64,000 bases of DNA, from assembly GCA_947502595.1 (NCBI GenBank), contig CANNAM010000012.1:1-64000 (forward strand), given 5' to 3'. The translations under genes were made by a program, and so were the position numbers. The notes under the pieces were generated by a model. It saw only the letters and a list, made by a program, of their open reading frames with translations, ran no database searches and was not told the origin of the DNA. Source of the DNA: an uncultured Marinicella sp. (GTDB taxonomy: Bacteria; Pseudomonadota; Gammaproteobacteria; Xanthomonadales; Marinicellaceae). Shown one piece after another: positions 36,790 to 42,627 of this stretch (position 1 is the first letter of the stretch; each line of letters begins with the position of its first letter).

Positions 36790-39652
<2,863 letters not shown>

Positions 39653-39731
39653 AAAAAAAACGGGACTTAATTCAAAGAACCAAGCCCCGCCAGTGGTTGG
39701 TGACATAAAGGGGGAAGGCGCCACCAACCAT
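39653..39731 (-). ncRNA. Candidate small RNA with C-rich loop, own promoter and terminator
   Basis: A transcript of about 79 nt is predicted on the minus strand. Hairpin 1: TGGTTGGTG (39730-39722) pairs perfectly with CACCAACCA (39702-39694); its 19-nt loop holds CTTCCCCCTTTATG. Hairpin 2: CGGGGCTTGGTTC (39688-39676) pairs with AATTAAGTCCCG (39672-39661) using G-U pairs around TTTG, followed by eight T (39660-39653), a textbook terminator. Upstream is a near-consensus promoter. There is no reading frame with a start of note. The exposed run of five C could pair with G-rich Shine-Dalgarno regions, as shown for C-rich-loop sRNAs such as Xanthomonas sX13; that function is inference. Confidence 0.75.
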
Positions 39732-39737
39732 GTGCGT

Positions 39738-39767
39738 ATTATATCCTGATTGTTACTGCCTTTTCAA
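39738..39767 (-). promoter_or_regulatory. Promoter of the candidate small RNA
   Basis: TTGAAA (39767-39762), 18 bases, and a perfect TATAAT (39743-39738) lie on the minus strand, overlapping the last codons and stop of the preceding thioredoxin-fold gene. Transcription should start near 39731. Confidence 0.75.
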
Positions 39768-40400
39768 ATAATCTATTGCAACTGCATGTAAAATACTTGG
39801 CGCCAACCGTATTTTATAGTCTGGGTTCACATACTGAAATTGAATCACACCATTTGTGCCAACTACAAAGGTGGCTGGTGCGGGCAACAAGTGGTGGTCA
39901 TGGCCTGAAGCTTGTTCCAAATCAATGTTCCATTGTTTGTATTTTTCAACTGTTACATCATCAACTTTATAGGCAATTTTAAATGCTTTGGCGACAGCCA
40001 TACTCGAGTCTGACAACAGTTGATGACCGGCCTCGGCTTGCAGTTCGGCTTTTAAGTCTTGGTCCTTTAAGCTATTTAGTAAAAAACTGGGTTGATCGGG
40101 GCTGATGAAATACACCTCAAACCCCATTTCAATTAATTGCTTTTCCAGTTCGCGCATTTCACCCAAGTGGGCATTGCAATAAGGGCACCATCCACCACGA
40201 TAAAAAGTCAGTACAAAAGGTTTGGTTAAGTTCTCAGGGTCAAACGTGACCGTTTCCCCATCGGGTGTTATTGCACTGAAGGTTGGTATACTCATGCCTG
40301 GGAGTAAGGGTGTGACCGCTTCAGCATGGTCAAAATAATCTTTTGCATTGGTAGTTATGCTGAAAAGAAGGCCGATAATCATCACGGGTACTGATTTCAT
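39753..40400 (-). CDS. Exported AhpC/TSA-like redoxin
   Basis: This 215-residue protein has a signal peptide (about 1-19, cut TNA) and a thioredoxin-fold peroxiredoxin-like domain. The redox motif is a CxxC in FYRGGWCPYCNAHLGEM (about residues 68-84), typical of the AhpC/TSA 'redoxin' group, not the TPxC of true AhpC. Later features are VYFISPDQPSFL, DSSMAVAKAFKIAYKVDD and PAPATFVVGTNGVIQFQYVNPDYK. It probably works as a periplasmic thiol peroxidase or oxidoreductase. The gene is monocistronic; the small RNA promoter sits in its last codons. Confidence 0.85.
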   Translation of the reverse strand: MKSVPVMIIGLLFSITTNAKDYFDHAEAVTPLLPGMSIPTFSAITPDGETVTFDPENLTKPFVLTFYRGGWCPYCNAHLGEMRELEKQLIEMGFEVYFISPDQPSFLLNSLKDQDLKAELQAEAGHQLLSDSSMAVAKAFKIAYKVDDVTVEKYKQWNIDLEQASGHDHHLLPAPATFVVGTNGVIQFQYVNPDYKIRLAPSILHAVAIDYLKRQ

Positions 40401-40662
40401 GGTTTTATTTCCTTGGTTATGAAACTTATAAGACAGGATAAATGAATAATTATTACATAATTTATTTAAATAAAGTGGGTGGTAAGTAATACCAGTATTG
40501 GTTTGATATTTTAATCAATTTACATAAGTATATACTGAACTAGGGAATTATTAACTGGCGGTGTATTACGCGATGACTTGATTAATCCTTAGGGTTTTGT
40601 CATCACCAAAAATTTTCAGCATAACCTCAGCTCTGAATGACAGGATTTATTTTAGCTTCACC

Positions 40663-41036
40663 TTGAATGATAGAATCCACTGTCATCTTGAGCGCAGCGG
40701 AGCGCAGTCGAAAGATCTCAAGCGGGGTAGAGTGATGTTTTTTTGAAGATTACGTTTGCTTTAGGAGATTGCCACAGTCGTTCCTCGGCAACTGCTCCTG
40801 CGTTGCCCTAACTACCTACATCCATGTAGGGGTCTTTCGCAATGACATGTTTCTTTTTACTTTTAACCTGAATGACAGGATTTTAATTTGAGATTGATAA
40901 AACAACGTCCCTGTCGTTTTACTCTGCGGGCTATTGCGCAGGGCTAATAGGCTGTTATGCCTTTTAGTCCACACGTCGCTTAGGCTCCACTTGAATGGCA
41001 GAAATCCTGTCATCTTGAGTGCAGTCAAAGGATCTT
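40663..41036. repeat. Dispersed modular repeat array 3 (B, A-long, C, B)
   Basis: Units in order: B 40663-40719, A-long 40763-40849, C about 40889-40990, and a shortened B to about 41036. A-long and C are close copies of those at 5598-5684 and 5803-5902, in the same relative order, so the block was probably copied as a unit. Bases 40401-40662 (leader of the redoxin gene on the minus strand) and 41037-41140 hold nothing else identified. The open frame 40816-41097 is repeat translation. Confidence 0.9.
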
Positions 41037-41140
41037 GGGTGGTTCTCGGTGGGTTTAAACAGGCAATAACTGATGGCATGTTGATTGAATGATACACGTT
41101 ATTATGACAAGATAGCGGTTTTGAATCAGAGTCAATAATT

Positions 41141-42286
41141 ATGAAAATAAGCAGTCAGTTTGATGGTGGCCGCATAGAAGCGGTCAAAGCCGAGGCGTTC
41201 GATGACATTCAAGTTAAAATCGATCACGATTCACACTCTGAATTCAGACAATGGTTTCATTTTAGATTACAAGGCGTTAAAAACCAAGATTGCGTATTGA
41301 AATTCATCAATGCCTCTGAAACTTCATATGTTGAGGGTTGGAAGGATTATGATGTTTGTGCTTCAACTGACCGCCAAGAATGGTTCAGAATTCCAACTGA
41401 TTTTGATGGCAAGCAACTGACGGTTGAGTTCAACACCGATACCGATGACATCTATTTCGCCTATTTTGCACCTTATTCATTTGAGCGGCACCTTAATTTA
41501 TTGGCGTTTGCCCAACAATCTGATTTGTGCTCATTACAAAACTTAGGTGAAACTTTAGATGGTCGTGATTTTGACATGTTGGTCATTGAGGATGCAGAAG
41601 TTGATTTGGCCGATAAACTTAATGTGTGGATGATTGCACGTCAGCACCCAGGTGAAACCATGGCTGAATGGTTTGTAGAAGGCTTTTTGGAGTCATTATT
41701 GGATCAGGACAACCCCAGCTCGAGACAGTTGTTGCAGCAATGTCGTTTCATGGTGGTGCCTAACATGAACCCTGATGGTGCATACCGCGGTAATTTACGC
41801 ACCAACGCGTCTGGTGCCAACTTAAATCGTGAGTGGCTTGAGCCTTCGATGCAAGCCAGTCCTGAAGTTTATCTGGTACGAGAGCAAATGCACAAACACG
41901 GGGTGGATATGTTTTTGGACATCCATGGTGATGAAGCCATTCCATATAACTTTGTGGCCGGCTGTGAAGGCAATCCTAATTATGATGCGCGTCTGAAAAA
42001 CTTAGAAGATACTTTTAAAGCCGCTTGGGCTGCAGCCAGCCCAGATTTTCAAGATGTGCATAAATACGATGACGATGAACCAGGTAAAGGCGATTTGCGC
42101 ATTGCTACTAATTATGTAGGGCAAACATTCAATACTTTGGCCTATACCGTAGAAATGCCGTTCAAAGACAACCATGATTTGCCTGATGAAGACTATGGCT
42201 GGTCACCAGAGCGCTGTAAGAAGTTTGGTGAAGATGTGGTCATCGCCATCAATAACACCATCCCAGCATTGAAAAAATCTAAGTGA
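41141..42286 (+). CDS. M14-family zinc carboxypeptidase, cytosolic carboxypeptidase-like
   Basis: This 381-residue protein has an N-terminal beta-sandwich (about 1-120) and an M14 catalytic domain (about 125-375), the layout of cytosolic carboxypeptidases (M14D). Zinc ligands are His and Glu in MIARQHPGETMAEW (about 165-178) and His in MFLDIHGDEAIPYNF (about 258-272); substrate-binding NLNREW is near 228 and the catalytic Glu in LAYTVEMPFKDN near 337. No signal peptide is seen. Eukaryotic relatives trim glutamates from tubulin; bacterial substrates are unknown. The stop overlaps the next gene's GTG by 4 nt. Confidence 0.88.
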   Translation: MKISSQFDGGRIEAVKAEAFDDIQVKIDHDSHSEFRQWFHFRLQGVKNQDCVLKFINASETSYVEGWKDYDVCASTDRQEWFRIPTDFDGKQLTVEFNTDTDDIYFAYFAPYSFERHLNLLAFAQQSDLCSLQNLGETLDGRDFDMLVIEDAEVDLADKLNVWMIARQHPGETMAEWFVEGFLESLLDQDNPSSRQLLQQCRFMVVPNMNPDGAYRGNLRTNASGANLNREWLEPSMQASPEVYLVREQMHKHGVDMFLDIHGDEAIPYNFVAGCEGNPNYDARLKNLEDTFKAAWAAASPDFQDVHKYDDDEPGKGDLRIATNYVGQTFNTLAYTVEMPFKDNHDLPDEDYGWSPERCKKFGEDVVIAINNTIPALKKSK

Positions 42287-42627
42287 CACAAACCGCTTGG
42301 TTGGTAAACTACCATTGGCTGATTGCCCTGACAGTTGCTGTTGGGGTAATTTCTTGGGTGGTGTTGCTTTTACAGGCTTTGTTTCATGACCAACGGATTG
42401 CTTTGGTTGGTGTGTTTGGCAGCTTGTTATTCAGTTTTACATTTTTATTCCCGCAGTTTATTCCGTTGGCCATTAAGTACAGTGCAGCCACATTGTGTGC
42501 TGTGTTTGTGCTCTGGTTTGGGCTAAAACACTGGCAGAAACCCTATGTGTACTTACCTGCTTTGGGAGTAGTGATGAGTTCGGTTTCAGCTTGGTGGCTG
42601 TACCATAACTTTCCAGCAGGTGGTTGA
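42283..42627 (+). CDS. Small inner-membrane protein
   Basis: This 114-residue protein is not recognised. It has four hydrophobic segments (about 9-30, 38-57, 63-80, 90-108) with short loops. It starts with GTG inside the stop of the carboxypeptidase gene (GTGA overlap), so its translation depends on the upstream gene. Membrane location is clear; function is not. Confidence 0.65.
   Translation: MTQTAWLVNYHWLIALTVAVGVISWVVLLLQALFHDQRIALVGVFGSLLFSFTFLFPQFIPLAIKYSAATLCAVFVLWFGLKHWQKPYVYLPALGVVMSSVSAWWLYHNFPAGG

Follow-up and report, generated by a model that had tools for sequence, protein, structure and literature searches.

What lies between a redoxin gene and purB in an uncultured Marinicella sp., an sRNA gene in its own right or part of one of its neighbours? 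A sequence-only reading of a 64,000-nt stretch of DNA (the window) proposed a stand-alone sRNA gene at this junction. The proposal is supported by a predicted promoter and terminator of its own, by conservation and by the lack of an Rfam match. We put at about 0.6 the probability that the segment is a stand-alone sRNA gene of ~79 nt, acting in trans by pairing of its loop with G-rich mRNA stretches, where transcription, trans action, pairing and targets are what we infer.

A predicted sRNA unit with a C-rich loop

The segment lies on the minus strand, with redoxin upstream and purB downstream as first described. Its parts and neighbours are as follows.

39653-39731, minus strand: predicted sRNA, 79 nt; first base A39731 set by the distance from the -10 box; based on the fold, nine copies and covariation
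39719-39730, minus strand: hairpin 1, 5' arm, predicted by the fold to form 12 pairs with 39694-39705
39706-39718, minus strand: C-rich loop CCUUCCCCCUUUA, 13 nt, presumed binding site, near-invariant in relatives
39694-39705, minus strand: hairpin 1, 3' arm, from the fold and the alignment
39653-39691, minus strand: predicted intrinsic terminator with a 15-pair stem (39691-39659), a UUU loop and eight U (39660-39653)
39738-39743, minus strand: predicted -10 box TATAAT, 18-nt spacer from the -35 box
39762-39767, minus strand: predicted -35 box TTGAAA, in the last codons of the redoxin gene
39753-40400, minus strand: redoxin, an AhpC/TSA-Redoxin family protein (PF00578, PF08534), upstream neighbour whose 3' end contains the sRNA -35 box
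37925-39292, minus strand: purB, adenylosuccinate lyase, downstream on the same strand in all nine bearers of the sRNA
39320-39348, minus strand: separate predicted purB promoter TTGAGA-17-TATAAT, downstream of the sRNA terminator

The 79-nt unit of hairpin and terminator described by the sequence-only reading is present at 39731-39653, and the strong terminator with eight T was seen at its end (39660-39653). Some details needed revision. The gap between TATAAT and the segment is 6 nt, near the ~7 nt first given, and what was called a perfect 9-bp hairpin with a CCCCC loop is indeed a hairpin, but one of 12 pairs (G-U included) in which CCCCC lies inside a 13-nt loop. The segment has a minimum free energy of -36.8 kcal/mol, compared with -19.8 (sd 3.1) in shuffles (z -5.55), and none of 200 shuffles folded as stably.

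The near-consensus promoter described earlier, TTGAAA-18-TATAAT, carries 11 of the 12 consensus letters. The window has four matches of this quality; 20 Markov-random windows average 1.4, although two of them also reached four. At the threshold of the promoter scan, 10 matches were found in 37000-42500 where 11.6 were expected. Taken alone, the promoter match is weak evidence. By a criterion defined after the feature was seen, a promoter of at least 10/12 with a strong perfect-stem terminator no more than 160 nt behind it, the window has one such unit, at the sRNA, and 10 random windows have none.

The unit matches no described family. Rfam 15 gave no match at or above the gathering threshold over the window, in agreement with the earlier remark that no riboswitch was recognised; at E values up to 10, three weak matches (best E 2.3) fell in 39500-39850 and were taken as chance. 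Among the open-licence papers searched, no sRNA work on Marinicella came to light: the two papers with both terms concern microbial communities, as judged by title and abstract, and none of the eight listed out of 421 from a looser search names the genus.

Distribution in Marinicella and beyond

A blastn search over 61 genomes recovered nine copies, the window's own and eight more with E values no higher than 2e-8, every one of them in the same genus. A covariance model built from these nine sRNA copies gave nine strong matches (76-97 bits) among the 33 genomes of the family, placing the sRNA in 9/18 Marinicella genomes and 0/15 other family genomes (next best match 27.1 bits). The covariance search had been proposed in the sequence-only reading, which had also made its claim depend on whether hairpins and promoter are kept in close relatives; both results, with paired changes in the stems and retention in half of the genus genomes, speak for an sRNA. 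The restriction of the predicted sRNA to one branch of one genus lay beyond what that reading could see.

The same nine copies stand out among 299 genomes of the order, where five weaker matches scored 22-33 bits. In the class (369 genomes), four genomes besides the window's own matched at E <=0.001 (29-38 bits); these were rejected, being terminators that resemble that of the sRNA in sequence but lack the C-rich loop. Of the weak matches at family and order level, ten (L040-L046, L048, L052, L053) were read and judged by eye to be coding-like sequence or other terminators; four more, L047 and L049-L051, have E values of 0.3-0.5. In L046 and L053, a CCCCCTTT stretch is present and the rest of the sRNA is absent.

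An exact scan of a wider genome contig collection for GGCGCCTTCCCCCTTTATG returned nine stretches, seven of which are the sRNA (81.5-96.4 bits in the covariance model). Their carriers are strains of M. litoralis (KMM 3900, locus L088), M. sediminis, M. marina and M. meishanensis, two Marinicella MAGs and one Lysobacterales MAG. The matches in a Bacteroidetes MAG and a Hungatella MAG scored 17.9 and 14.8 bits and were attributed to chance. The scan is blind to the copy in genome G007 because its loop differs, and it may omit the window's own record.

Conserved pairing around a fixed loop

In the nine-row alignment, 98.3% of the cells are paired. Changes on both sides affect 13 of the 27 pairs (25 cells), as compared to 5.0 pairs and 5.6 cells in shuffles, with 0/500 shuffles reaching either value, and sliding the pair partners by 1-3 columns leaves 1-4 such pairs; the count is to be read with the caveats that related rows can exceed shuffles and that the slide control leans toward structure because the structure was derived from the same alignment. 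Both elements contribute: hairpin 1 has 97.2% of its cells paired and 5/12 pairs changed on both sides, and the terminator stem 99.2% and 8/15.

The loop is identical in 8/9 sRNA bearers. Among these eight genomes (G007 left out) it shows no differences, whereas pairwise differences in the two arms are 0.182 and 0.274; the loop of G007 is shorter by two bases, with nine C ahead of UUUAUG. As far as the alignment can tell, the loop is mainly held fixed in sequence, and for much of the arms pairing alone is held. Constancy of the loop between varying arms is what a binding site would be expected to show, and because a C-rich loop has remained almost unchanged on a stem that changes in matched pairs, the predicted sRNA is very likely a working RNA.

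The promoter-like sequence is conserved as well. The -35 box is TTGAAA in seven of the nine bearers, ATCAAA in G007 and TTGATT in G005, where the flanking DNA is unrelated; the -10 box is TATAAT (5), TACAAT (2), TATCAT (1) or TAAAAT (1), and spacers are 16-18 nt. Seven bearers accordingly have TTGAAA-16/18-TA(T/C)AAT, G005 has TTGATT-16-TAAAAT, and the ATCAAA-17-TATCAT of G007 is a poor match (8/12).

Relation to known sRNAs with C-rich loops

Marinicella belongs to the order Lysobacterales, as does Xanthomonas, the host of sX13. In the parts of its description drawn on here, sX13 is a strongly structured RNA of 115 nt at the polA locus, with an unstructured 5' region and three C-rich stem-loops. 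Its apical loops carry CCCC/CCCCC, and loop 3 contains UCCCCCU; its repression of targets requires the C-rich loops and G-rich motifs in the target mRNAs (PMC3771888). The Marinicella sRNA likewise has a C-rich apical loop on a stable stem. It differs in its predicted length of 79 nt, in having two hairpins and one C-rich loop, and in its place at purB, rather than polA, in all nine genomes. According to the same excerpts, sX13 is reported from Xanthomonadaceae only, represses hfq and acts without Hfq (PMC3771888), whereas GGGG is absent from the Marinicella hfq leader (-70 nt to +30 nt around the start) in 13/13 genomes read. These leaders (L354-L366) are similar just before the start, roughly AATAATAAT..GAGTAAGGTAAC.

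GsrN of Caulobacter, in the portions of its description used here, is a sigma-T-dependent RNA of ~106 nt that is cut into a stable 5' form and uses its C-rich loop to pair with a G-tract of the katG leader (PMC5869019). By comparison, the predicted promoter of the Marinicella sRNA is sigma-70-like. For RepG (HPnc5490) of Helicobacter pylori, the source, as excerpted, describes how the C/U-rich loop of its terminator pairs with a G-repeat within the tlpB leader (PMC8295292). The Marinicella sRNA, by contrast, carries its C-rich loop on hairpin 1 and has UUU as its terminator loop. Helicobacter pylori and Marinicella belong to different phyla.

The motif UCCCCCU is common to sX13 loop 3, RepG and the Marinicella loop (except in G007), as far as the excerpted descriptions go. 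This likeness of the core motif is possibly convergence. By analogy with what these excerpts report, sX13, GsrN and RepG share the architecture of a near-invariant C-rich loop on a varying stem, and their C-rich loops pair with G-rich motifs that lie within leaders or close to translation starts (PMC3771888, PMC5869019, PMC8295292). The Marinicella sRNA thus appears to be a new family by its lack of an Rfam match, yet of a known kind, the C-rich-loop sRNAs, and set apart from sX13 and RepG by their descriptions.

Proposed mode of action and candidate targets

In the mechanism that we favour, the sRNA would have a sigma-70-type promoter and an intrinsic terminator to itself. A firm hairpin would display the near-invariant 13-nt C-rich loop, followed by the terminator hairpin. 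The loop core UUCCCCCUUU would pair with G-rich stretches in or near mRNA ribosome-binding sites and so alter translation of the target mRNAs. Hfq, which is encoded in 17/17 genomes searched, may help but would not be required.

Candidate sites were sought by motif. The long complement of the loop, RRRGGGGGRRGG, occurs at 19 places in the nine genomes, nine of which are the sRNA locus itself, leaving 10 others vs 8 in the reversed control. The motif AAAGGGGG occurs at 100 places in three genomes vs 87 for the reversed motif; of these, three are the sRNA loci, and the 97 that were read yielded three homologous pairs by blastn, none with the motif near the start in both members.

Start sites were searched with the pattern AAGGGGGN{2,11}ATG, which represents AAGGGGG before ATG, sites with two ATG being counted twice. 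The nine bearers have 277 such sites vs 89 in the reversed control (ratio 3.1), and the nine members of the genus in which the sRNA was not found have 147 vs 56 (ratio 2.6). The excess over the control indicates that sites with which the loop could pair exist, but since it is similar in bearers and in sRNA-less genomes, G-rich ribosome-binding sites do not clearly track the sRNA. The AGGAG and GAGGT sites pointed to by the sequence-only reading are not the best complement of the CCCCC loop.

Genes behind AAGGGGG sites were read in four bearers (G000, G003, G012 and G016), the other five being covered by count only. The 34 frames include one orthologous pair, a tail-collar-domain protein (PF07484) in G000 and G016. 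GGGG or more precedes its start in 6/7 bearers in which a copy was read (not in G003); no match was found in G009, and G005 has other copies only. The G-rich site is also present in sRNA-less G001 and G011, and absent from G002, G006 and G013; G010, likewise sRNA-less, gave no match. Three tail-collar-domain genes stand in tandem (L320-L331), the first with the G-rich site in six bearers and two sRNA-less genomes, the others mostly with GGAG.

In the window's genome (G000), AAGGGGG sites precede pilP (PF04351), rapZ (PF03668) and the gene of one protein with a signal-peptide-like start and a sub-threshold Pfam match. None of the three found a partner by blastp among the AAGGGGG frames of G003, G012 and G016. 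The pilP start (L117, G000:C1:344093) follows AAAAGGGGG, and rapZ (L250, G000:C7:150703) starts after AAGGGGG. In enterobacteria, RapZ is an adapter of sRNA decay.

The target prediction from the CCCCC loop that had been suggested earlier therefore gave no convincing target, the sole orthologous pair being G-rich in two sRNA-less relatives as well. Across the motifs searched in bearers, the sRNA-less controls and the hfq leader, no site tracking the sRNA was found, and for this reason the mechanism is one that we infer.

The same outcome would suit a fixed loop that binds one protein or one other RNA, so that the sRNA titrates a single partner rather than pairing with many mRNAs. Identity of the loop in eight of the nine genomes is also in keeping with this explanation, which we regard as unlikely but as a real contender. 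The GGA motif of CsrA/RsmA-type sponges is lacking from the loop, which argues against a sponge of that type, and the search for mRNA targets covered a few motifs only. According to the excerpted sources, sX13, GsrN and RepG use their C-rich loops to pair with mRNAs.

Independence from redoxin and purB

All nine copies are upstream of purB on the same strand, with 79-360 nt between the sRNA end and purB, and G005 keeps this link to purB even without an adjoining redoxin. This constancy is what a cis-acting purB leader (attenuator or riboswitch) would show, an explanation that we consider improbable. A purB promoter-like match with TATAAT 25-28 nt before the purB start is present in 16/16 genomes read, nine with the sRNA and seven without. 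The terminator stem and hairpin 1 do not overlap in the fold, so no antiterminator is apparent, and there is no Rfam riboswitch match. The purB leader was rejected on sequence because of the separate promoter predicted in all 16 genomes.

The segment could also serve chiefly the redoxin mRNA, as its 3' UTR and terminator; the sRNA would then derive from that 3' UTR, and its promoter would be incidental. The segment starts 21 nt past the end of the redoxin frame, and the terminator scan finds no other terminator in between, so that redoxin transcripts would end at the sRNA terminator, which may thus serve both. However, G005 has another gene next upstream, in divergent orientation, and still keeps the hairpin, loop, terminator and a promoter-like sequence. 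G006 and G013 have redoxin without the sRNA. The -35 box overlaps redoxin Tyr-Leu-Lys codons, of which the Leu codon is TTG in 7/8 bearers that have redoxin, as compared to CTC (G006), CTT (G013) and ATC (Ile, G015) in sRNA-less genomes. That the segment belongs mainly to redoxin therefore seems a poor prospect.

Because a purB promoter is predicted in 16/16 genomes and the unit is kept in G005 without redoxin, the predicted sRNA looks like an independent gene, neither purB leader nor redoxin 3' UTR alone. Comparison among the genomes shows a conserved structure, a fixed loop, a conserved predicted promoter and terminator, and an apparent separateness from both neighbours.

The earlier statement that the segment has no coding frame needs qualification: an ATG opens a frame of 19 codons at the predicted first base, but the frame evolves unlike protein. 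This leaderless frame, MVGGAFPLYVTNHWRGLVL (39672-39731, minus strand), was absent from the sequence-only reading. That the frame encodes a leaderless micro-peptide (MVGGAFPLY...), whether or not the RNA also has a role, is highly improbable and the coding reading was rejected: although ATG stands at the predicted first base in 7/9 genomes, it is ACG in G009 and G007, the frame is shifted in G007, frames stop at differing places among genomes, and the first 13 codons in eight genomes show 98 nonsynonymous vs 20 synonymous pairwise codon differences (counted over pairs of genomes, not events).

Origin of the sRNA gene

In a purB protein tree of 19 genomes, the nine sRNA bearers fall on one side of one branch, whose support (85/82) is below the program's firm-branch mark and which appears in 86% of bootstrap trees. 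The sRNA-less G006, G013 and G010 adjoin the bearer group, and in G006 and G013 the redoxin-purB junction is ~80 nt with the purB promoter and no sRNA. The junction reading covered seven of the nine sRNA-less genomes; G014 gave no purB match, and in G008 a contig end interrupts purB. A single gain of the sRNA fits these sequences best, the alternative being loss in the sister clade.

It is possible, though we would not expect it, that the loop is kept constant for just one partner, whether a protein or another RNA, and that this circuit originated a single time, at the redoxin-purB junction of the ancestor from which one Marinicella branch descends. If so, the sRNA would be of recent origin and would act as a titrator or scaffold rather than by pairing generally.

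The predicted sRNA gives Marinicella a clear-cut sRNA family that has no counterpart in Rfam. Bounds can be set on its age, since one clade bears the sRNA and two members of the sister clade keep the junction without it. The emergence of an sRNA gene can thus be traced, down to a predicted -35 box inside coding sequence.
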